A stretch of 64,000 nucleotides of DNA, taken from NCBI GenBank assembly GCA_001600055.1, contig BCIV01000004.1:1-64000 (forward strand). The letters are read 5' to 3'. How positions within the stretch are numbered: position 1 is the first letter of the stretch; each line of letters starts with the position of its first letter. The position numbers and the translations under genes are program-made. Of the stretch, positions 16,266-62,277 are shown one piece after another. The stretch comes from Filobasidium wieringae. Its lineage: Eukaryota; Basidiomycota; Tremellomycetes; Filobasidiales; Filobasidiaceae. Under the pieces are notes generated by a model, which was not told the DNA's origin, searched no databases, and saw nothing but the letters and a program-made list of their open reading frames with translations.

Positions 16266-18034
16266 TTAGATCTGATCAGACTTGTTGTTCTCCGGCCTGA
16301 GGGAACGGACGGTCTTTCCGGCCCTCCACATCTCCTGGTTGTCAATCTCGGCCGTCTCCTTGTTGAACAGTTCACGGTAGTTCTTCTGTCCGTTGAAAGT
16401 CAAGGATCGTCGGGTCTCGTCACCGTTCTTGACGGAAGCGTAGAGGGACTTGAAGACGGGAAGGTTGGCGTCGTAGAACTTGGGGGCCCAGTCGAGACTG
16501 CAATGGTGAGCGCCATGGTGATCAGCCGGGAAGATGAAACATCAAAAGGCTTGATGACTACTTACGCTCCTCGCTTGGCGGTGGTGGAACAGGCGTTGAA
16601 CATGTAGTCCATCTAATCATCGCAAAGTAAAGATCAGTATCCTAGATAGGTAGTTCCACCACATGAAACACTTACACCGTTCTTGGCGACCAAGGGGTAG
16701 AGGGAGACCAAAGCCTCCTCACAAGTCTATCAAGGAAACGAGCCACAGTTCAGCGCCTGGTACTATCCTCTCAAGTTTAAAAGGCCAATCTACCGACCTC
16801 GTTGAAAGCCTCCGATGGGCTGTGTCCGTTCTCCCTGAGGACCTGGTACTGAGCCAAGAACATTCCCTGGATTCCTCCCATCAAACAACCACGTTCACCG
16901 TACAAGTCGGAGTAGACTGTGGGGTGGAAATAGAGGTCAGTGGAAGCGTTTCTCAGATGACTATAGGGATTCAATTGCTCACCCTCCTTCTCGAAAGTCG
17001 TCTCGTACAGGTACTAAGGAAGGATCGAGAACCAAAAGTCAAATAGCGTTCGGTTGAAACCCTTTCAACCACGCGAGGACTCACTCCGGATCCAACGGCG
17101 ATTCCCATAGCGATGGCCTTCTCCTTGGCCTTTCCGGTAACGTCCTGGAAGACGGCGATGGAGGAGTTGATTCCTCGTCCCTCGAGGAAGAGAGTTCGGA
17201 CGGTTCGTCCGGATCCCTTGGGGGCGACGAGGATGACGTCGACATCCTCAGGGGGTACAACACCGGTCTGGGGGGGAAGGAAGGGAAGGAGGGTTAAGGT
17301 TAGATACGTCATGGCATGAGGGAAAGTTGCGAAGAGGGTAAGGAGGAAAACACTCACGTCCTCCTTGTAAACGACGGAGAAACCGTGAGCAAAGTACAAA
17401 GTCTTTCCCTTGGTAATCAAAGGCTTGATCTCGTTCCAAGTCTGGGACTGAGCGGCATCACTGAGCAAGTTCATGATGATGGTACCCTTCTCGATGGCCT
17501 CGTGGATAGGGAACAAGGTCTCTCCGGGGACCCAACCGTCCTCCTGAGCCTGTTTCCAAGATTCACCTCCTTCTCTTACTCCGACAATGACCTTGAGACC
17601 GTTGTCACGAGCGTTGAGGGATTGACCGTGTCCCTGCGAACCGTATCCGATCATGGCGAGGGTATCATTCTTGAAGTACCTGAGCAGGAGTAAGAGGGTG
17701 AGTGAAGCGCACGACGGTGACCAACGTAGATCAAGCACTCACTCGGTGAGCTTCTCAGTGGGCCAGTCGGCACGCTCGTAAATGACCTCTTCAGTACCAG
17801 CAAAGTCAAGGGTCTTGAGTCCTCGAGTGGCCTGGCGACGTGTCACGCGATCAGACGACCATCCAGGTATCGACCACCCGTACGTCTACTCACAGAGAAA
17901 GCGGTCTTGGCGATCTGAGGCCTGGCAGAGACGGCAGCCCTGGCAGCCAAAGAGAAAGACCTCTTCGCGGCGGGCTGGGCAGCGGCGGTGAGAGCCTGTT
18001 TGAGGACACGAGAGGAAGTGGATCGGAATGACAT
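16266..18034 (-). CDS. ILV5: Ketol-acid reductoisomerase, mitochondrial
   Basis: ATG at 18034 gives MSFRSTSSRVLKQALTAAAQ, a Ser/Arg/Ala-rich, acid-free leader typical of mitochondrial import. Then TLAMIGYGSQGHGQSLNARD (NADPH-binding glycine loop), GETLFPIHEAIEKGTIIMNL, GKTLYFAHGFSVVYKED, DVDVILVAPKGSGRTVRTLF, and the C-terminal helical domain VYSDLYGERGCLMGGIQGMF with LGENGHS-like RENGHSPSEAFNE. The protein ends RSLRPENNKSDQI with the stop at 16266. The enzyme converts acetolactate and acetohydroxybutyrate in valine and isoleucine synthesis. It has several short introns and looks complete. Confidence 0.95.
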
Positions 18035-43927: not shown

Positions 43928-44424
43928 GGGTCGAACGTGGTGTACAAATGTACGCGAGGTCGTCAGCGTATATAGTAATCGAATACGGTTTTCTAAGTGC
44001 TGGGGGATCGGATGTGGTGTACAAGCGTAGGGGCTCGTCAGCGTTTATAGCTATTGAATGCATGGTAGAGGTTATACGGTGGGATGGTCGTCTTTGACGT
44101 TGACGATATTGAACCTCGCAAATGGGTTTCGTCCGCGAGATTCATCTGATTCCACCGTAGCGAACTGTACTGTTGCCCGTAAGCAGGGCTAGGTCGCCGA
44201 ATAACTTGGTGGGGGAACGAATCGACCAACCAGTCGGCTGGGTTGAAGAACGGATCGCGTCAGTTCGCGTCCTTATGGCGCGCCGTTTGCACCAGGAGAA
44301 AAGCATCTCTTCTGCCTTTCTTGAGACGACTGCACTGAGAGCTGTCGGTAGCTGTAGGTGACAGGCAGAAGGAAACGATTGACATGGCGGATCGAGCGGG
44401 AGTAAGGAGGTGTAAAACTCGACG

Positions 44425-44462
44425 CAAAAAGACAATCCCTAGTGCGGCTCGAACGCACGACC
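44425..44462 (-). repeat. Dispersed 3' fragment of tRNA-Arg with terminator
   Basis: These 38 bases are identical to 45576-45613, the 3' end of the tRNA-Arg(ACG) gene: T-arm, 3' acceptor strand and the T5 terminator. The bases beyond it do not provide the matching 5' acceptor strand, so this is a fragment and not a second gene. Confidence 0.75.
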
Positions 44463-44565
44463 GCACCGACCATGCTTCACTTTAGGCCGCATTATCACCT
44501 AAATAAGTCGATTTTTATCACATTTCTGTACGTAACCACGTTTCTTAGCGTTAGAGTTGACAGAA

Positions 44566-45070
44566 GTTCAAAAGTTCAATTGAACTCCTGTTGAACGCGT
44601 TCTAAACCGGTTTTTTTTTTTGTTCAACTTGAACTTGAACTTAAACTCCTTAGGAGTTCAAAAGTTCAAAGTTTAAACTCCTAGGCGTTCAAGCGTTCAT
44701 TAAACTCTTGAACTTCCAAGATATTCAGCCCCGTCAAGGAAGGCCTCCAGCAAAAATACAAATGTTCCCACAGCTTTGTATGGTGTCCATATGAGGTCTA
44801 CTAGGCGTAGCAATACATCATCTACCTTGGTTGGAGACTAAGAAGGGAAACAAGTAGAAGTTTAAGAGTTCAATTGAAGTTCAACCCCTTAAACTCGCTA
44901 AAATGGAGTTCAAGTTTAGTAAAGTTCAATAAAAGATTCTTGAAAGTATTAAACTTGAACTCCAGATTGAACTTCTTGAAATTGAATGCGTTCAAAGTTC
45001 AACTCCGATGGCGTTCAAACGTTCAAAAACAGCTGTTCGTTTGTTCACGTTCAAGCGTTCAAGTTGAACT
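44566..45070. repeat. Two blocks dense in GTTCAA/TTGAAC hexamers
   Basis: I count 11 copies in 44566-44718 and 13 in about 44870-45070, in both orientations and with irregular spacing. Flanking words such as TTAAACTC and GGCGTTCAA also recur. No open frame or tandem period explains them. The two blocks are separated by about 150 bases of ordinary sequence. Confidence 0.75.
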
Positions 45071-45576
45071 TGTGCCAACTCTACTTAGCGTAATAGCAGC
45101 ATGCGGTGTTTCAGTACAGCGCTAAGATATTCAGCTCCTAATACCTGCTTAATTGCATCTGAATTACGTAAACTGCCTTTGAAGTATGTGCACTAGCGAC
45201 TGCCTCATCACGTGACTGCTTGAATTACCTTAAGTACAGCAAATAATAGGGCCAATAGGCTCAGGACTGAACACTCCAAACAGCCTGAAACACGAACTGA
45301 ATTTTCGACTAAATTACGCAATTATGTACGCACGTGACGACTGAAAACTCGACTGGACAACCAAATGCNCCCTTNCCCTCTCTTGCCCTACGCGCGCTGC
45401 GCAAGCCTCTCCCTACATATGACTGAAAGACCCCCCTCTTTGTAGCATCTTCAGTTGACTTGTACATCATCATCTCATCATTGTCTCTGTGTTTAGCCAT
45501 TTCAGGGCTTACAGCGATACACTCGGCCGTATTTTTTGGTAAGCAAAGAGAACTCCTGGCCCAGTCAAAAGAGGCC

Positions 45577-45581
45577 AAAAA
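45577..45581 (-). terminator. RNA polymerase III terminator of tRNA-Arg
   Basis: Five T residues on the minus strand, three bases after the discriminator base of the tRNA. Confidence 0.7.
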
Positions 45582-45584
45582 GAC

Positions 45585-45668
45585 AATCCCTAGTGCGGCT
45601 CGAACGCACGACCCCCTGATGGATCCACTTATTCGTAGTCAGATGCTCTACCGCTGAGCCATAGGGAC
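45585..45668 (-). tRNA. tRNA-Arg(ACG) with a 12-base intron
   Basis: The cloverleaf is complete on the minus strand. The acceptor stem pairs GTCCCTA with TAGGGAT (G1-T72 wobble). The D arm is GCTC/GAGC with loop AGCGGTA. The anticodon stem TCTGA/TCAGG encloses loop C-T-ACG-A-(intron)-A, with a 12-base intron after position 37. The variable region is GGGTC. The T arm GTGCG/CGCAC has the canonical TTCGAGC loop. The anticodon ACG reads CGU/CGC/CGA arginine codons after inosine formation. It sits beside tandem copies of its own 5' half. Confidence 0.9.
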
Positions 45669-46145
45669 TTCAACGTTCTCGACCCGTTCAATTGCCCCAT
45701 CTATCCCCAGATCCCAACACCGAAAATCAAAAGCCGACGNNNNNNNNNNNNNNNNNNNNNNNNNNNNNNNNNNNNNNNNNNNNNNNNNNNNNNNNNNNNN
45801 NNNNNNNNNNNNNNNNNNNNNNNNCAACACCAAAAATCAAAAGCCGACGCCCAAAACCCACACCACACCACACCATTCTCGTAGTCAGATGCTCTACCGC
45901 TGAGCCATAGGGACTTCAATGTTCTCGACCCGTTCGATCGATCCATCGATCCCCACATTCCCAACACCGAAATCAAAAGCCGACGCTCAAAGCCCACACC
46001 CACGCCCAAAACCCACACCACACCACACCACACCATTCCCTCCGTCAGAGCTCTACCGCTGAGCCATAGGGACTTCAATGTTCTCGACCCGTTCGATCGA
46101 TCCATCGATCCCCACATTCCCAACACCGAAATCAAGAGCCGATGC
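45633..46145 (-). repeat. Tandem repeat of tRNA-Arg 5' half plus 5' flank
   Basis: The intact tRNA's 5' half and about 70 bases of its upstream flank recur. Truncated 5' halves lie at 45879-45914 (to the anticodon) and 46043-46073 (shorter, with a small change in the anticodon stem). Each is followed on the plus strand by TTCAAYGTTCTCGACCCGTT and a segment ending AARAGCCGAYGC. The two truncated units are 159 bases apart. ACCACACCACACC runs occur between units. The gap at 45740-45824 hides part of one unit. Confidence 0.85.
45740..45824. other. Assembly gap (85 N)
   Basis: A run of N inside the tRNA-flank tandem repeat; the true repeat number is unknown. Isolated N bases also occur at 33747, 45369 and 45375. 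Confidence 0.95.
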
Positions 46146-51002: not shown

Positions 51003-53028
51003 ATGACGACCGTAACTCCCACACGCCACAATCCAATCCCACTCCATACCATCCGACTCTCAGCCAAATCGAACCTCTCCCCGATAATCGATCCTCCCCA
51101 CCCCGAACCGTCACACCTCCCCGAACCGGGTCATGTTCATCAACACGAGTCCGCCCCCTTTACCGAGGATGCGAAGATCCAGGATGGGGGCAAGGCGAGG
51201 TTGGTCTTCGTCGGGACTGCTACTTGTGTTCTGGAATGGTGAGTCCCCCGAAGGCGCTGGAGGAGGGCTTTCGGGTTTGTCCGGTAGAGGTTGGTATGGA
51301 GTTTGATGAGTCTGACGACGGTCGGGGGTTTGGGCATGCATAGGCAGGGGATAAGGATAATGACGGATCCTAATTTCGTATGTCCCATCCCGTATTCACT
51401 CATTACCTCCTCTCACAAACCTAATCCCACCCAACTCCTTCAAAAACAGTTACACGTAAGCCACCCACCCCTCCCACCACCCATATCCTCCGCATCTCAC
51501 CCCCCCCCACCCCTTCCCTCGACAGGCCGGGGAACACGTCCACCTAGGCCCCCTCGTAACGTCCACCCGTCTAACAAACCCCGCCTTCCCCCTCTCCTCA
51601 CTCCCCCCGGTCCACTGCGTCGTGCTGAGTCATTTTCACGCGGACCACTTCGATCAGGAAGTGGAGCGGAGGTTGAGGAGGGATCTGGTCGTGGTCACTA
51701 CTAGACATGCGGAGAGGGAGTTGAAGGCTGTCCAGAGACCTGATGGAGGGTTTACCAGGGTCGTGAGTCGGGTCGATTCGGAAGCGTCAGCCGCTAGTCT
51801 CTACGTTTCGTGGATTTCTGATCCTCTTGCCTCGATGCGGAAAAGTACGGAATGGACGTCTGGGAATCCACACTCTTGGAATTGAAAGACACGTTATCGA
51901 CCCGTGAACCGGTCGTCAGGGTGGTCGCTACGCCCGGTACGTCTCGGGCTCTTTTCCTCTTGGTTCTCTTCTCTCGTTCTTCTGTTCCTTATTCTCTCGC
52001 TTCCCTTCTCCTCTCGCTTGTCCCCTTCGTGCCCCTGATCCCTTTTTTTCCCTGTCTCACGAACTAACACTCCCAACCGAAAACTGACCCTCCTCCCTCC
52101 TCCCCCCTCTTTCCTCCTGTGCGTCGCGCGACGATAGGTAAACACGTAGCGGGCGTGGTAGGGGCGGTGAATGATACCATCTTACATGCCATCCCACCCG
52201 TTCGTCCCTTTTCATCTCCTACCATCCTAGGACTTTTGAGTTGATGCGGAGATGATCTTGCGCCCCAGACGAATGGACATATACTGGAATTGGGGTATAA
52301 GAGTGCGACCGGGAAAGAAGGGGAGGAGGGGGAAGGGCAGGCCGTACAGGTCGGATATAGGATTTATATTTCGGGGGATACGTTGATGGGTCAGTCTTCC
52401 CTCGTTCTCGCGCTCGTCGATGGCGACTTGAAATCTGATGACCATCCGACTGGTCTACAGTGGACGATCTCAAAGTAAGTCCATCGTGTGACCGGGGCAT
52501 GGAATAGACGGGTCATCAACGCTCCGATTCGAACCATATAGGAAATCCCTAAACGTTACCCCGATGTGGACCTGCTCCTGATTCATCTAGGCGGGACATC
52601 CATCCCTAGTGCAAAAGCTCCTCTTCTAATGGTCGTCAGTCCTTACGTTCTCTTTTCTGATCCACGAATTCTCTTCATGTTGATACACACCTTACCTTAT
52701 ACCCCCGTCCTCACGCCCGACTCGACTCGACTTGAACCGACTTTGACAGACGATGGATGGGAAACAAGGAATAGAACTCGTCCGTCTCATAGGACCCAAA
52801 CTCACCATCCCCATTCATTTCGACGATTACGACGTTTTTGCCGTAAGCACTCCCGGTCCCCTTGTCGCGCGCGCGCGCGCGTGTATGTGTGCGATGTTGA
52901 TTAGGGGTTTCTCGTATGGATAGAGCCCGAGGAGCGATTTCGAGAAGGAGATGAAGGAGGCGGGGTTGGAGGGGAAGGCGGTTTATTTGGAAAGGGGCGA
53001 GGCTTTCGATTTCGGCGTGAGGGGATGA
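51003..53028 (+). CDS. Metallo-beta-lactamase-fold hydrolase
   Basis: ATG at 51003 (MTTVTPTRHNPIPLHTIRLS); an in-frame ATG at 50931 is possible. After splicing: ARLVFVGTATCVLEW, QGIRIMTDPNF, and the metal motif CVVLSHFHADHFDQEVERRL (HxHxDH). Then REPVVRVVATPGKHV, VQVGYRIYISGDTLM (the Asp ligand strand), DVDLLLIHLGGTSIP, and LTIPIHFDDYDVF (last His). The protein ends GEAFDFGVRG at 53028. The order matches the UlaG/NAPE-PLD-like branch rather than glyoxalase II or lactonases. Substrate is unknown. Introns are numerous; the borders between 51480 and 52470 are approximate. Confidence 0.75.
52866..52881. repeat. (CG)8 repeat
   Basis: Alternating CG over 16 bases in an intron of the hydrolase gene, followed by TGTATGTGTG. 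Potential Z-DNA former; a simple repeat. Confidence 0.7.
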
Positions 53029-53281: not shown

Positions 53282-54163
53282 CTAATATCGTTCCTGTGTA
53301 GTGGTGGGAGCCTGGAGCTTATCGACTGACAAGAATATCATGGTTAGTTTGGTACAAACTGGAAGTCGCGCCGATACTTGAACTCACGCATTCTCCGGCA
53401 TCGCTGTACATCTTTGTTGTTCAGGTCCCATTTGGCCTTGCCCTTGAAACGCGGTCTCTCCCCCATGTTATGAACTTCCATAGTTATGAGCTCAGCGTAT
53501 CATCATAGGCCACTGAACTTTGATGCAAAACAGGCGCTGAAAGGTTGCTCGTCGGGTTTATCAAGATAATCTATGACCGGGCCGTCATATCTGCTCACCT
53601 TGACATCTCCAGTTATCTACCAGATCATCAGTTTGGGCGACGCCGATATATCTGTTTCGATTATATCGCTGATCCGCCATTATCTTCACTATATCTCCAT
53701 ATAGATCCTGGTGCTTTGCAGATTCAGAGCAAATTCCATCGCCCTTTGGTACCGGAAGGTTCTCCTTGTAGTGACAAACGGGGCAGTTTTCAAACAGCCT
53801 TCCAGCGATCTTGTCGACAATGCTTCCCATTTTGGTATTACTAGCGGGATAACACAAAGGTATGTCGCTGTGAAACACCTTACCGGGACAGCTTCTCTCG
53901 GGGAAAGTAACAGCCTCCCTTCACGTTGTAGCCTGCACGTCGTATTCGGATTCGTCCGACATTATCTGGAAGTCTGCCAATTCCAAGGCGCCTTCTTGAA
54001 CGGGGCCTTCATTGGCGGGAGCTGCTGATTCGTATTCTGAATATCGTCCAGTCACAAAAGATCCAGATTTGTCCGTTTCGATATGACTGCCTGCCGAAGG
54101 TTGAGTACCGATGATACTATGCGTTCCCGGCTGCGTTGACTTATCGGATCTTCATGAGGACAT
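53282..54163 (-). pseudogene. CCCH-motif family copy A, disrupted
   Basis: The family motif reads NCPVCHYKENLPVPKGDGIC followed by SESAKHQ (C-x2-C...C-x5-H), near 53700-53820. Lys replaces the Pro after the second Cys. The basic segment ERPRFKGKAKWDLNNKDVQR and the short last exon (MLDKLQAPTTTQERY, stop at 53282) align with copies C-E. Disruptions: the best start (ATG 54163) is followed by TGA at codon 4. The frame of the acidic region (PANEGPVQEGALELADFQIM) ends in a stop without a good donor. About two bases extra break the DTLSS-MEVHN junction seen intact in copy C. It may be a decaying copy, or splice in a way I could not find. Confidence 0.55.
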
Positions 54164-55431
54164 GGAGCGGTTGAATATGGAAGAATTGTCGTTCATTATA
54201 GCTGTGAGACTGCTTGTGCGTGTTATAGGGCCAGAGTAATTGGGTGATACATTTCAGCAATTCTAGCATCGTTCTCCCTTTCTTTATATATACTGGAAGA
54301 TCCTCGTTGTCGTGGATCTCGTTGACGATTGCGTCATCCTTTTCAGTGCTTCTCGGATGGCGAATCTTGTGCAAGCTCGTGACACAAGTAAACCTGCTTC
54401 TTTGAACTGCCATGCGCTATCGCCTGGAGAAGTAGTATCACTACGTTCGCTCGCAGTCACGAGCTCCTTTGACCTGACGCGTCATAGGTTTTGCTTGATT
54501 CTCAACAGAATCACGAATTTGCACGGTACAAGTCCTCCCTTACATTATTAGAAGTATAGGATTCTTTCAGAAGGCGATGGGCGTGATCATTGCTCACCCG
54601 ACCATCATTGCGAACATGCTTGATTCGGGTGAACGAGAACGTTCGTTGTCTATGGGCTAGCATAATGCAACGGTAAGAGGGAGAAAACAACTCATAGAAG
54701 GATGAGGTATCCCTCGACACATCATACCAAATACTGGATGGTTAACTCGCAAGCGTACGCCCAACAGAAAATCGAACTAGGTATTTACAGTTCTACAGCC
54801 TTACAGGAATTATCAACATGACGCTATCTCTCGCGCGTGTTCGTCAACCAGGGTGCATCCTTTGTTTAGCGAATAGGCGAGTCATGGCATTTCATACCGA
54901 AGACATCAGATAGCGGCGGCAAACTTTCGTCTTGGATCTTTGGACATCATCTCGCATTGAGAGTTGTGCTGGTCGTGTCGTGAAGCTATGCTATTCAAAT
55001 CATCAAATACGCAGAAGGGACGCGACGTCGCGCTTGCAGTGCTCTAAACGGTTCTGTAGCTGATGTGATCATGTCTCCACTAGAACGTACGAGACATAAA
55101 CTCGCATAACTGACAAGCAATGCGCGAAAATGGATATGGAATGCTTCAGGTCCCTTCGAGGACTGTACGCCTATAATTCAGGTTGGGGGAATGAAGAGCT
55201 TTGTGAGCCGCTTTTGGCATTCAAAAACCCTCTCTATGTCTCCTACGAGAGTGAGGGTTACACGACGGTTATGCAGAGCTCAGAATACGGAAGCGGTGGA
55301 GAGGTATCTCGAGACTGAGATTTGGACTGATGGAACAAGACAGAATTGGGCGTAGATGCTCTGCTCGTAACTCGAAACACGAAGATGGATATCTCATAAA
55401 GCTATCGTTATCTTTCTTGATCTAGTTGCAT
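54164..55431. other. Intergenic in the CCCH cluster
   Basis: About 1.3 kb of AT-richer sequence between copies A and B. Short frames only. Presumably the upstream region of copy A. Confidence 0.45.
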
Positions 55432-56174
55432 GCGTCTCTAAGGAAGTTAGTGAGCAGTGAATGACCTCTAGCCCGGTCTTCATCGGGTTCCAAACCTTTT
55501 ACTGAAGATGAAGGCTTAGCTTCGGCATCCATAGTGTACGGCAGACGATTACGGACATACACAGGGTAACGGTTTCCTCAGGCTCAACCTTCGAGTTGAT
55601 CTTAAGCAAGCGGTCAAACTGAGGATTGTCTCCTGTTACTGATCCACACGATCTTGTATCAGTAGCTGAATCGCTGCCTTGATGTGATGCCATTACCTTT
55701 CCATTTGTGTTCCGCGTAGCCTCGGTGCAAGTCCCAGAGACTGGCTGTCTTGCTATCATCGCCTTTCACATCCTTGGTCAACACAGACAAACCCTCCTTT
55801 GCGATCAATAGATGATTCTGCCACAAAGGGCAGATTCCTTCTCCTTGACCGACTGCTAGATACCAAGGGTATCCACAGCGGTCGCAACCCTCGGTGTTGG
55901 AAGGGATAGGTCTGATGGGACCATAATACATTGTGGCGAACGCCCAGATCGACTTCTTGAATTCCCTCGGGCTGAAATCGATTGTATCGTGTTCGTCCTC
56001 CTTGTCAGCATCATCATAAAACCAAGTAGCTGCATCCATATCTGAGGAATTGCTGGCCTCGCTGTTCGTTGACGACCGCTGCATTGAAGTGTCCTGGTCG
56101 CTTTGGTAGCCATCGCTTCCGTCACAAGGATGGGTGGAACCATCCGCCGATGAGGACCCCATAGAAGAAGGCAT
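55432..56174 (-). CDS. CCCH-motif family copy B
   Basis: I do not recognise this family. Exons: 56174-55697, 55638-55561, 55501-55432, both introns in phase 1. The N-terminus is polar and Ser/Asp-rich (MPSSMGSSSADGSTHPCDGS). Then an aromatic segment (SPREFKKSIWAFATMYYGPI) and the motif GCDRCGYPWYLAVGQGEGIC followed by PLWQNHLLIAKEGLSVL. The chain continues LWDLHRGYAEHKWK, exon 2 VTGDNPQFDRLLKINSKVEP, and exon 3 LLKGLEPDEDRARGHSLLTN. No signal peptide or membrane segment. The four conserved Cys/His suggest a small zinc site (inference). Confidence 0.65.
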
Positions 56175-56940
56175 GATAGTTATTTCGAGTTGTAATTGAT
56201 GTGTAGTGGTTTATGCCTGTGACAAAAGTATCAGTGAATGTCTTGAATTTCTCAACTTAAAGACGCAAGCAGATATCTACCCCCTTATACAGTGTCAGTC
56301 TGCCTTACCAGAAGACCTCCCTTTGTTGGGGTCAAGAAGGCAAAGACGATTACCAAAGAATCTCGTGCTAATTCCCAGACTGCACGTGTGTCTCGTGACC
56401 GGAGTTTCCAGTCGTCTCATACCGTTTTACCGCTAGGGTATGCTAGGTAACGCAGACGTCAGACAATCATATACGAAACTTGACTATGGCCAGGAGAACA
56501 CAGCGGTGCGTTCTTGACTTGGGCAATGATGTCCAGAGCGTTCTTTGCTACAAGCTGACGCACGTGCGTTTAGGAGTTGCCGTATGCTGACCGATGTCCC
56601 ATAAAAGAAACTTGTTGGACGATCAACTCGAGATCCAACCACACATGCGACAATAAAATCCACGTGCTATGAACACTGACGATCGATTGTTTACCAACTT
56701 ATCAACGACTCGAGTTTGTGGCGAAGGAGTGAATAACCAAAGGACAAAGCCTTTTGACGATCGTGTGATTTGTCAATTACCGTATCGTCACGAAATCTGA
56801 AATCTCGGATTGCTCAGTTTACCAATGCAATCACATTTGAAGAGCTATAAATTCTATAAATCTATGTTCAGATATTCTGACCTTTCGAATCGACTGCCGT
56901 ACTTTGCGAGTGCAGAGCAATGATAAATAATGGATTCCTG
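56175..56940. other. Intergenic in the CCCH cluster
   Basis: About 770 bases between copies B and C; no coding frame supported. Contains CACGTG-type words near 56383, 56572 and 56662. Confidence 0.45.
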
Positions 56941-57856
56941 CTACCCCTGTATTTCCTCGACTATGGATCGACAAAACGTTAGTTCAGATGGGAGGTCCTA
57001 CCATAATTAGGCTTACTCATTTTCTTTGCCTTGTTGATTTGTTCCGTACGCCTTTTCCACTCTCGGCGGGCTTTCAGGTCAATAGCTTTAGGCTTGTTAC
57101 CTGGTAATTGGAGTTCCATGTTCGACAACGTATCAAATGCGTTCCATTTTAGGATGTTATCGTTGGGTAGTTGTACTTTTAAGTTTACCGCTCTTTAGCA
57201 ATCGCGCGACGCAAATCGAAATGAAACGCGCGAGTCGACACACCTTGAAACGCACGGTCATGTACAAAGTCGACGACCTGTTTGAGATGGATGGATGTTC
57301 CGGGAGTACGGGTCCGGTAATCTTGCATTGCAATGATTTCTTTGTAAACCTCAACCTCGTCTAGGTGTACTTGAAACTCCTTGCAAATACCAGGTCCTTT
57401 TCCTACTGCAATATACGTCGGATGGCCGCATTCACACGGATGCATGAGTCGATTATTGATGACCCTGTTCTGGATGCGTTCTGCGAGCTGCTTCTGTCTC
57501 TCATCATTCGTTTGGTACTTCAAAGGGATCTGAGGTAAATACGTATGTCCCTGAATCTGTCCAGGAGGCGGATAGTAGTACTTTTCATCGAAAAGCAAAG
57601 TTCCGTCTATGACAATGCGCTCGCAGTCGATATGGAATGGTTTGAGTTCTATTCTATTCCCGGTAGAGGCTCCAACAGTTTGTGGATCTGCGATGGACCT
57701 GTCGCCGGACAGGACACCAGAGGTCGCGGTGGCAACACTCGTCAAGCCTGAGGTAGATCCTCCCATGGAGCTGGCATTATAGAAAGAGGAAACGCCACGT
57801 TCAGTAGCGCTACCCGGATCGAGATGAGAGCCGTCAGTATGGTTCGAATAGACCAT
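56941..57856 (-). CDS. CCCH-motif family copy C
   Basis: Exons: 57856-57244, 57175-57017, 56960-56941, both introns in phase 1. N-terminus MVYSNHTDGSHLDPGSATER, then Gly/Ser/Thr-rich. Before the motif: IELKPFHIDCERIVIDGTLL and RQKQLAERIQNRVINNRLMH. The motif is PCECGHPTYIAVGKGPGICK with EFQVHLDEVEVY; here the first two Cys are C-x1-C instead of C-x2-C. Exon 2 is basic: KAIDLKARREWKRRTEQINK. The last exon is only 20 bases and gives the ending KKMIEEIQG. The longest and best-formed N-terminus of the cluster. Confidence 0.7.
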
Positions 57857-58903
57857 AGATTCTTGTGACAAGTAAAACTTCGATGTATGTGGTAGAGATC
57901 AGTCAACAGATAAGTGAAGAATACAATGCGAGAGGGAAGAGCCGTGTCGTTGCCCTCCCCTTATAACTGTTTTCTTCTTTCGGTATGCAAGATACTGCTC
58001 CTTTGTTCTGAATCCAGTCGAAACGCGTTATGTTGTCTCACAGCAAAGACTTCGTGCCTTTCAAAGGCAGAGCGAGTTCTATTCTTGGACACGAGACTTT
58101 CGCCCACACTTCGCCCCGATATATCTAATCGCCTAATTGATCCTTTTTCGTGAATGGCGGAATGTTAGCGAAGCCCGTCTTTTTAATGGCGGGATTAGTC
58201 CATAGTAACATCTTCCAGACCAGAACTCATTTGCCGCGATTCTCTAGGCCTTTCAACCTTGGTGAAATGTGCGCGAACCCGATTTGCATAACGATGGAGT
58301 GACATATGTTTATGGTATCAGCTTACTTTTACGACCGAACTCGCGCTCATCAGGACAATCTCGTAGTTATAGTAACCGAATTTCTTTCTGTATAACGAAA
58401 AACTTTCCAAAGTAGCTTCCCAAGTGTTGCAATGTTTTCGAACGGAATGTCAATTGGGCGGCGGGATGACGCTCACAGTATGATTTGGCTCCCCTTATAT
58501 TGTAGAGCACTACATATACCCGAAACCAATCATGATGGAATCCATACCTTTCGTACGATCATGTGCACGATACGATACCCCTAGAAGTGTGCTCTTAACG
58601 TCTTACGAATGCGCGAGAAACAGGCCAGCTTGTAGAAGTCTCTGGTAGTCTATCGAATTACTCATAAGTCTTGCTGACGCAAACTAGAGTTCGAAAAGCA
58701 CGTATCGGACCCTGCACAAAGAAGGTTGCATCATCGTGTCAAATAGCTGCAGTTGATTGATTCAGGGTGTTTGCGGGCTTGAGAAGCGTCACGGTTTGTC
58801 GATAGGTTATATGCAAACTGGATACACCCAACAGCTCAACAGCAGACTTCGATGCCATCCATAATAAACATAAGAAAAGCCTGATAGTCTATTGTTCAGG
58901 TCG
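57857..58903. other. Intergenic in the CCCH cluster
   Basis: About 1 kb between copies C and D, AT-richer than the left half of the window. No supported gene. Confidence 0.45.
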
Positions 58904-59670
58904 CTATTTGCTCTCCGATGGTAACAACAAATCATTGACTGATCAATAAACCTTATGAACGACGGACGGTATGAAGTTTGAGCAGGGATCCGTCTTACTT
59001 AGCTTGCCGACTCTTCGCTCTGCACCTGCTTTCGTTTCTAATTTCACCCATTTTACCGAAAGGGGGCTCTTCAGAACATCGTATCCAAGCCAATCCTGAT
59101 ACAGATCTTCTGTAAGGTGCTTTGGTTCATCTAGGGGCAAAACGGATTGAGTTGATTTGACATTGATCGCACATTTGACTTACAGTTCTTTTTCCCGTAT
59201 TTAAGCCAGTTTACTATATCAGGTAGCAGTGTGACCCGGCTGACGTTTCCACCCCATCTACTCAGAATAGCAAACGACGTGTCCGAATATGTCATGTGGT
59301 CGTCCCAAAGAGGGCAGATTGTGGTATCCGCCAAGACCGGAAGGTAAAGCGGATAGGGGCATTTGCCACATCTTCCCAATTCCCCTCTTGCAGCCTTAGC
59401 GAAGAAATCACGCTCATGTGGCTTCCATTTCGTAATTACCCCCTCTTCCAAGTAAATGGGGGACTCCTGTACATCTAGAGGGATTTCGACCGGCATTTCC
59501 GTCATCGGCGTGTGACTGAATGACAGACTTCCATAGCTTGGAGGGTCGCATGTGGAGGATGCTGGATTGTTCAAACTTCCTGTGTACCACGTCATAGTAC
59601 CGGTACCTTGGCATGAGACTTGTGAAGGACAGCTGAGCTCAGAGGTGGATTTAGCATCATTGAACGGCAT
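58904..59670 (-). CDS. CCCH-motif family copy D
   Basis: Exons: 59670-59184, 59130-58999, 58938-58904, both introns in phase 1. N-terminus MPFNDAKSTSELSCPSQVSC, polar. The motif is RCGKCPYPLYLPVLADTTIC followed by PLWDDHMTYSDTSFAILSRW; the PLW after the third Cys is shared with copy B. Then LLPDIVNWLKYGKKN, exon 2 YEPKHLTEDLYQDWLGYDVL and VKWVKLETKAGAERRVGK, and a last exon giving LINDLLLPSESK. The YIWYSEG/VNWLKYG region is comparable to copy E. Function unknown. Confidence 0.68.
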
Positions 59671-60337
59671 GTCGAGTAAAGAGTTTGGGATCAGATGAAG
59701 ATATTCCAGAGAGTTAAATCCAATATTGCAGCGATGGAAGATGAGAGCGAGACTCTAGAATATATAGTGCTCTGAATTGCTCTTCAATGTGGTGACATCA
59801 TCGAAAAGTCCCTCCTTTTATGTTCCATCACTTCTTATGACTCCTTTTAGACCATTCGCTTGTGACCATCATAATCAGGTCATCTGTGAAATCCTACCAT
59901 TACATCAATCTGCGGCTGAACGCACGTGATATGGGTTGCTCTCTCTGCAGCTGATGGACCCACGGACAGCTTGCTCTCCTCCCGCTATTTGAACCAGGAC
60001 ATAAGGATTTTCCGACTGTCATACGCGAAATCAAAAGCGGCTCCTCAGCAATTTAGTAAAGTAAAATGACTCACAAGTATATCATGCCATAACCGTTGGA
60101 GGACAGCTCCAACGAAACGTAAGTGCTGCGTCCCGCCCCCTTTTGATCAGAACCATCGTTCCGCTTTCATGACCACTCTCAGGGTTTCGATAGCAGATTA
60201 TGAAATTTATGGGTACGCGTATCATTCTGTTATAGTCACAGCAATCGGACAATTGAGAAACGGTTATATGCATGCCTTCCGATTGACATTGCGAAATATC
60301 GATCCAACCACGCCCATAAATCGATAGAATCGCAAGA
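59671..60337. other. Intergenic in the CCCH cluster
   Basis: About 670 bases between copies D and E; no supported gene. A GCACGTGA word is near 59925. Confidence 0.45.
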
Positions 60338-61021
60338 TCAAGTGGTCTTTCCTTCTTTAAGATCTTCAACTGTGCAAGTATCGTTAGCCGCATACAGTTC
60401 CATTACAGTATAACAACTTACTCAGACCCTTCAGGGTATCGATTCCAACGGACCCTTCAGCCGATTTGGCCATCAGAGGAGCATATTTCTCATTGATTTG
60501 TTCAACCAAGTGTACTCGAGAACGTGCTAGAAGACCAGGTGTTAGATAAGTCAAGCAGCTGTCCAATGAAGCTTACCATTCAGCTTTCCCTCCGAGTACC
60601 AAATATAGACATCGACCAAGGTCGGGACTTGTCGAGAATCGCGTCTTGCCACCCATCTCAGAACACACTCAGCTTCTTCTAGATGCGCCTGCCCGTCCTT
60701 GCAGATCTCTTCACACAATCCAATCGGTACCCACAAAGGACATATACAAGTGGTACACATAGAGGGAAGGCGATCCAAAAAGTTCTCGTGTCGTGTGTTT
60801 CTTTCAACCCGAATCTCATCAAAGAAGCCCTTCAAAGCGGCGGATTAGTAAAGCGCGGGAGAAACGTTCAGGCTGGAGGGGTAACCACTCACGGATGCTA
60901 CGGCTTCATCGTACGAGGTCGGAGGTTTTGCATCCATACCGATTGATGGTGTAGATAGACCCGAGGACATATCGCCCGGCTGAAAGCTTATTTCATCTGT
61001 TTCCTGGCTTAATGCACTCAT
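60338..61021 (-). CDS. CCCH-motif family copy E
   Basis: Four exons: 61021-60903, 60829-60577, 60526-60422, 60369-60338. The first intron (phase 0) is not seen in the other copies; the other two are phase 1 as in B-D. N-terminus MSALSQETDEISFQPGDMSS. The motif reads MCTTCICPLWVPIGLCEEIC then KDGQAHLEEAECVLRWVARR, with an extra Cys on each side of the PLW. Then VPTLVDVYIWYSEGKLN, exon 3 ARSRVHLVEQINEKYAPLMA, and a last exon giving IEDLKEGKTT. All joins keep frame, which is good evidence for a real gene. Confidence 0.68.
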
Positions 61022-61743
61022 TCTCAAGGAAATATTCTAGGATGATGACGAGACCGAAGTAAATGTTGGATTTCTGTTTTGGGAAGATGAAATGGTATCA
61101 GGCGGATGGATGATGCAAGACTGTAGTGGGATCAATCTTGTATAGATCCCTCACAAGTCCCTTTCCAAATCGTCTCCTTTCTATGTTTCATGCGTCGAAG
61201 ACATCCTTTTTAGTGCATCCTTGTGGCGTGTGCCCACCGCGGACAGCTAGATAGAGGCCTTCTACGAAGTAAATTGCGGGTCAGATTTATCATTACCATG
61301 CCTTGTGTCGGCAGAGAACCGGGTTGATGTCTATCGTAGCTCCCCTCCCTGTCGTGACAACATCTGCGATTTGCCACCCGCGACCAGAAATCTCGGCATC
61401 ATTTAGGCAACCTCGGGAAAACGGACTGGGACGCCTGCTGAGCCGCTGTCAACGAGCTATCGTTCTTGAACTTGCTTCAACGGACATCATGTATGTAAGA
61501 GAAACGTCACATATTATGGGATTTACACATCAGAAGACAGTGGGTAAGACTCGGAGTCTAAGGTCCTGCCCCATCATATGATACGAGAGAACCAGTAGAG
61601 CCATGCGATGGTATGATATCGCGCGGCAAACAATTCTCGATTCGTTGATATAAATGCCATCACAAAGTCTCGCTACAACCGTATGCCCTCTTTCGGAATG
61701 CGCAACATCCTAACCCTTCACAGCTGCGCATCTCTCCCGGCAA
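61022..61743. other. Intergenic in the CCCH cluster
   Basis: About 720 bases between copies E and F; no supported gene. Confidence 0.45.
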
Positions 61744-62277
61744 CTAATACTGCCTCTGGTCGTCGAGATGCCAATCAAAGTCAAGTTCCGATTGTAATCT
61801 GCACACACCGATGAAGAGACTACTTACAGTTGAAGTCCGACCCCTTGATTCCTCAAATTCTGGAGGTTCGCCTGTGTCAACTAAAACCTTTAGATCCTCC
61901 GGACCGAAATCTTGGTGATATCTGCGATGATGCCAGCTATACCGTCGCAACACTGAGATTCCAGTGATGTACAGATGCTCATGCATCTGGCTCTCAGTAC
62001 AAGCTTCAGATTCCAGGTAGACTGGGTTGTTGCACTTCTCACACGGGACCTTGAAATTCGGGAGTTCCGCCACCCAATCAGCTCCCTTATACGATCTGTC
62101 CCATACCCACGATGGGACCTCTTGTATGCTGACGCGTGGCAAAGTCGGCTCGTCTTCCAGGAGTCGGATACTTTCGTCTTTGCTATAGTCGAGAGGACAA
62201 CGATCCTCGATCATGTGACTAACGGATGGCTCTCCGTCGTAAGAGTCCTCACAAGCGGAAGTTCGAGAATCAGCCAT
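61744..62277 (-). CDS. CCCH-motif family copy F, divergent
   Basis: I set the start at MADSRTSACEDSYDGEPSVS because the other copies begin with similar polar Ser/Asp-rich stretches; the frame is open to another ATG at 62457. Upstream of the motif: VPSWVWDRSYKGADWVAELP. The motif reads PCEKCNNPVYLESEACTESQ then MHEHLYITGISVLRRY. The linker between the second and third Cys is about four residues shorter than in B-E, but C-x2-C, the Pro-x-Tyr and C-x5-H are kept. The frame runs on to ELDFDWHLDDQRQY and a stop at 61744. I did not find equivalents of exons 2 and 3, so the copy may be truncated or spliced differently. Confidence 0.55.
   Translation of the reverse strand: MADSRTSACEDSYDGEPSVSHMIEDRCPLDYSKDESIRLLEDEPTLPRVSIQEVPSWVWDRSYKGADWVAELPNFKVPCEKCNNPVYLESEACTESQMHEHLYITGISVLRRYSWHHRRYHQDFGPEDLKVLVDTGEPPEFEESRGRTSTVSSLFIGVCRLQSELDFDWHLDDQRQY

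Follow-up and report, generated by a model that had tools for sequence, protein, structure and literature searches.

What are the six short units that follow one another on the minus strand between 53.3 and 62.3 kb of this DNA, each carrying a C-x(1-2)-C pair and then C-x5-H: members of one gene family, and if so a family of what function, or motifs that recur by chance? The genome measures 19.76 Mb in 33 contigs, and the window analysed here covers bases 1-64000 of contig 4. Its short spliced genes point to a fungus, putatively a basidiomycete close to the Tremellomycetes. A motif scan placed the Cys/His cores, all on the minus strand, at 53711-53785 (copy A), 55812-55886 (B), 57365-57436 (C), 59296-59370 (D), 60683-60757 (E) and 61981-62043 (F), with core-to-core distances of 1.3-2.1 kb. 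The minus-strand tandem of six motifs described in the original prediction was thus recovered in full, together with both deviations that it had pointed out, a Lys replacing Pro in copy A and a shorter linker in copy F. A six-frame scan of the 64-kb window yielded no further motif copies beyond the six array units. On 264 kb, consisting of the window and 200 kb downstream, the motif form originally drawn from copies B-E gave four matches, all four in the array, and a looser form covering A-F, which had been adjusted to these two end copies only after both had been seen, gave seven, six of them in the array and one by chance in the downstream 200 kb (at L012). Neither form matched the reversed 264-kb sequence.

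The array stretch (54001-62000) has a GC content of 0.46-0.47 per 2 kb and the rest of the window mostly 0.48-0.58, with one other low-GC stretch of 0.444 at 44001-46000. The window includes 88 undetermined bases (33747, 45369, 45375 and 45740-45824). Adjoining the array is a plus-strand ORF (52542-52904) whose product, read by eye, may be metallo-beta-lactamase-fold hydrolase-like; a minus-strand ORF at 16974-17738, also read by eye, may be ketol-acid reductoisomerase (ILV5)-like.

The units had been described as six genes; four of them, copies B-E, each have an open spliced model on the minus strand. Copy B (55422..56174) has exons 56174-55697, 55632-55561 and 55501-55422 and encodes 209 aa; copy C (56941..57856), in a refined model, has exons 57856-57244, 57175-57017 and 56960-56941 and encodes 263 aa; copy D (58932..59670) has exons 59670-59184, 59130-58999 and 58951-58932 and encodes 212 aa; and copy E (60338..61021) has exons 61021-60893, 60829-60577, 60526-60422 and 60369-60338 and encodes 172 aa. 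Copy F (61744..62277, minus strand) begins at an ATG at 62277, and its frame stays open as far as a stop codon whose last base is 61744; its 3' exon structure is provisional. The frame of copy A is broken as it stands. Copies B-E each contain one intron directly after the core and one near the end, and all eight of these introns are in phase 1; copy E has an extra intron, in phase 0, upstream of the core. The first intron of copy C spans 57243-57176 in the refined model, which reduces it from 143 to 68 bases. In introns B1, B2, C2, E1, E2 and E3 a branch-like site, in which CTNA precedes a C, T or G, begins 18-30 bases from the end of the intron; in the shortened C1, CTNA is found at 23 and 8 bases, and neither D1 nor D2 shows the branch-like pattern.

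A TATA-like site lies 71-130 bases upstream of the ATG in five of the six copies, those of F falling just outside this interval, which was picked after inspection; such a site occurs in 6% of 60-base minus-strand stretches of the window and in 12% of those in the array region. Copies B and C also have TATAAGGGG in common upstream of the start, at 56283-56289 and 57959-57965 respectively, with TATA at approximately -115 in B and -109 in C. AGGGG is a stress-response element in yeasts.

Copy A (53282..54196, minus strand) has a start-like ATG at 54196, an intron after the core at 53598-53537 and, read by eye, a last intron at about 53387-53326 with a tail running to 53282. Residues 18-186 of spliced copy C matched it at 53642-54136 (E 4.2e-4 in the whole genome), a stretch that is interrupted by one in-frame TGA. 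A second in-frame stop lies close to the start, the exon after the core meets a stop after DTLSS, and the C-like tail sits in another frame. Because of the in-frame stops and the displaced tail, copy A is probably a decayed copy, as judged from its reading frames; a possible alternative explanation is an unrecognised splice pattern.

The relationship among the copies was assessed by searches of the 19.76-Mb genome with single members. Eight such searches scored the best candidates only, so that the match counts are lower bounds, and they returned at least 19 matches, all in the array, of which 10 were self-matches and 9 cross-matches. Apart from the C-A match given above, cross-matches linked B with D (E 1.9e-4 to 7.5e-4), B with C (0.0011 to 0.019) and C with E (0.02 to 0.04), and the cores of A and F as queries found themselves alone. 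In leave-one-out searches of the 264 kb, copy E was found at 4.8e-7 by a profile built from B, C and D, copy A by a B-F profile at E 0.0012 and copy F by an A-E profile at 0.013. Copy F was missed on the same 264 kb by the B-D profile (0.96) and by the B-E profile (2.4), the latter ranking a chance match at L027 (0.5) above it. Finally, longer regions around the cores were compared with 500 decoys per copy in which the Cys and His positions were fixed, and for each of the six copies none of the 500 decoys reached the real score, although the margin for copy F was slim (12.2 vs 11.7 bits). As the ligand positions were held constant in the decoys, the similarity among the copies exceeds the four ligands. 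The copies had been called otherwise dissimilar, a description that these profiles contradict, since similarity extends beyond the motif; the genome and decoy searches support the companion proposal that the family expanded locally and combines a compact Cys/His core with variable ends. Judged from these similarities, the six units are one family, with copy F as a marginal member.

A search of 5.8 billion proteins with copy D returned two relatives at E <=10 among 127 candidates. One of these, P0001, shares 75% identity with copy D over 99%, and the other, P0002, 93% over 57%. The alignment of A-F with both relatives, used as a query, found the same two proteins among 2245 candidates, and the unspliced first-exon frame of copy C found no relatives among 255 candidates. 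P0001, named a hypothetical protein in the database, was called without splicing and continues across both introns; its translated introns could therefore be used as a rough neutral yardstick. Copy D and P0001 differ at 32 of the 160 residues of exon 1, at 3 of the 43 of exon 2 and at 3 of the 30 translated intron codons (15 counted from intron 1 and 15 from intron 2, with the indel-shifted end of intron 1 excluded). P0002 departs from D at 18 of the 137 exon-1 residues that align and at 1 of the 15 codons of intron 1. Diversifying selection, assessed by comparing exon 1 with the introns for copy D and P0001, was not significant (Fisher p 0.30); as change in exon 1 is not significantly above that in the introns, selection is not claimed.

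All four Cys/His ligands are present in the six copies and in both database relatives. The absence of a signal peptide was upheld for copies B-F by simple Kyte-Doolittle hydropathy, which detected no hydrophobic N-terminal stretch: within the first 46 residues, no run of 12 averages above 0.56. In this respect copies B-F differ from secreted small cysteine-rich proteins, which have a signal peptide. The N-termini have no single common character. The first 60 residues contain 13 Asp and Glu against 2 Lys and Arg in B, 11 against 4 in E and 15 against 5 in F; the corresponding acidic counts are 5 in C and 4 in D. Ser and Thr make up about one third of B, C and D and 18% of F. The structure prediction that had been suggested for the core gave a helical model of moderate confidence for copy D (AlphaFold2, 8 rows; mean pLDDT 73, pTM 0.63), in which a helix, a Cys loop, a His-bearing helix and a further helix follow one another with no strands. 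The model of copy C was poor (pLDDT 64, pTM 0.45) and placed three helices in the same order as in D.

Several explanations of the array compete with that of a locally expanded, lineage-restricted family. The least probable, to which we give almost no weight, is that chance motifs lie within non-coding sequence. It would account for units that are without DNA-level similarity except in short stretches, but is contradicted by the decoy and genome-wide tests, by the shared phase-1 introns and by the two relatives that copy D has in the protein database, 75% and 93% identical to it. Membership of a known family was examined in Pfam with six cores and six proteins, of which C entered as its first model, F with 149 residues and A with 77. 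Matches were listed at E up to 10, with program filters that drop most of those above about 0.1, and none exceeded the Pfam cut-offs; NCBIfam, PADLOC and PDB sequences gave no convincing match. This agrees with the original prediction, in which no matching family could be named. Tristetraprolin-type zf-CCCH fingers resemble the array copies in having three Cys and one His, but their spacing is C-x8-C-x5-C-x3-H, into which the array spacing of C-x(1-2)-C-x(10-14)-C-x5-H does not fit, and zf-CCCH was listed for none of the six proteins or six cores. C2H2 and BED fingers, whose fold is beta-beta-alpha, likewise have a CxxC and then a second ligand pair, which in the array follows some 10-14 residues on; there, however, the third ligand is Cys and the order C-C-C-H, and neither type was listed at E up to 10 for any of the proteins or cores. 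A weak match was seen to PF13963 (Transpos_assoc), positions 35-63 of whose 74-position profile align with the CxxC-to-His stretch of copy F, which lies within its matched residues 75-108 (E 0.041, or 0.012 for the core alone). Two other weak Pfam lines were taken as chance. The match of copy F, together with the strongly basic tail of copy C (pI 10.4 in the first model), would suit an origin from a transposase-type zinc finger (Transpos_assoc or BED-like) that this lineage has domesticated and multiplied, the copies now being small regulators that bind DNA or act on chromatin. We consider this unlikely, since F reaches 14.5 bits where the cut-off is 27.7, none of the other five proteins is listed for PF13963, only one of the six cores matches (best E 0.012), and the pI of the tail is 5.2 in B and 5.6 in E.

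Somewhat unlikely, in our estimate, is that the array belongs to an ordinary fungal family, known already but absent from the collections searched. In favour of this, the relative P0001 is called unspliced through both introns; against it, Pfam-A, which covers eukaryotes, has nothing at its cut-offs. Allorecognition or conflict genes of a self/non-self or killer type, with ends diversified by selection, could also give rise to tandem, divergent copies, one of them apparently decayed, for which few relatives are found. Given that the rough selection test was not significant and that Pfam and PADLOC revealed no partner or killer domain in the array proteins, this explanation appears improbable. 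A more elaborate proposal, namely a new, lineage-private, zinc-nucleated recognition module, present in tandem copies that selection diversifies while the metal ligands stay fixed, with a function in self/non-self recognition or genetic conflict, we regard as distinctly improbable; the self/non-self or conflict role raised in the original prediction is no more than a possibility.

The explanation that we tentatively prefer, with a confidence somewhat short of even, is a gene family that expanded locally and is probably restricted to its lineage; its small, non-secreted proteins would each be built on one zinc-nucleated helical module for partner recognition, and the family would evolve by birth and death. 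Related units have grown in tandem on one strand, and the copies would be relatives of a single small gene that are old and diverge fast. From the retention of the four Cys/His residues we infer that they bind one zinc ion, which would pin the loop to the start of the helix and support a two-helix surface, and the polar N-terminus may be disordered. The proteins would remain inside the cell, where the zinc-nucleated helices of each copy may recognise a partner protein, with the ligands retained as the rest of the sequence changes. Copies are envisaged to arise and decay through birth and death, a turnover suggested by one broken copy among divergent neighbours. On the collections searched, the family is provisionally considered undescribed. 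Should it prove private to one fungal group, it would provide a clean small case of a metal-binding module that is multiplied, diversified and lost in place, as well as an entry to accessory function; should it prove widespread, a model of the family would still be worth building.
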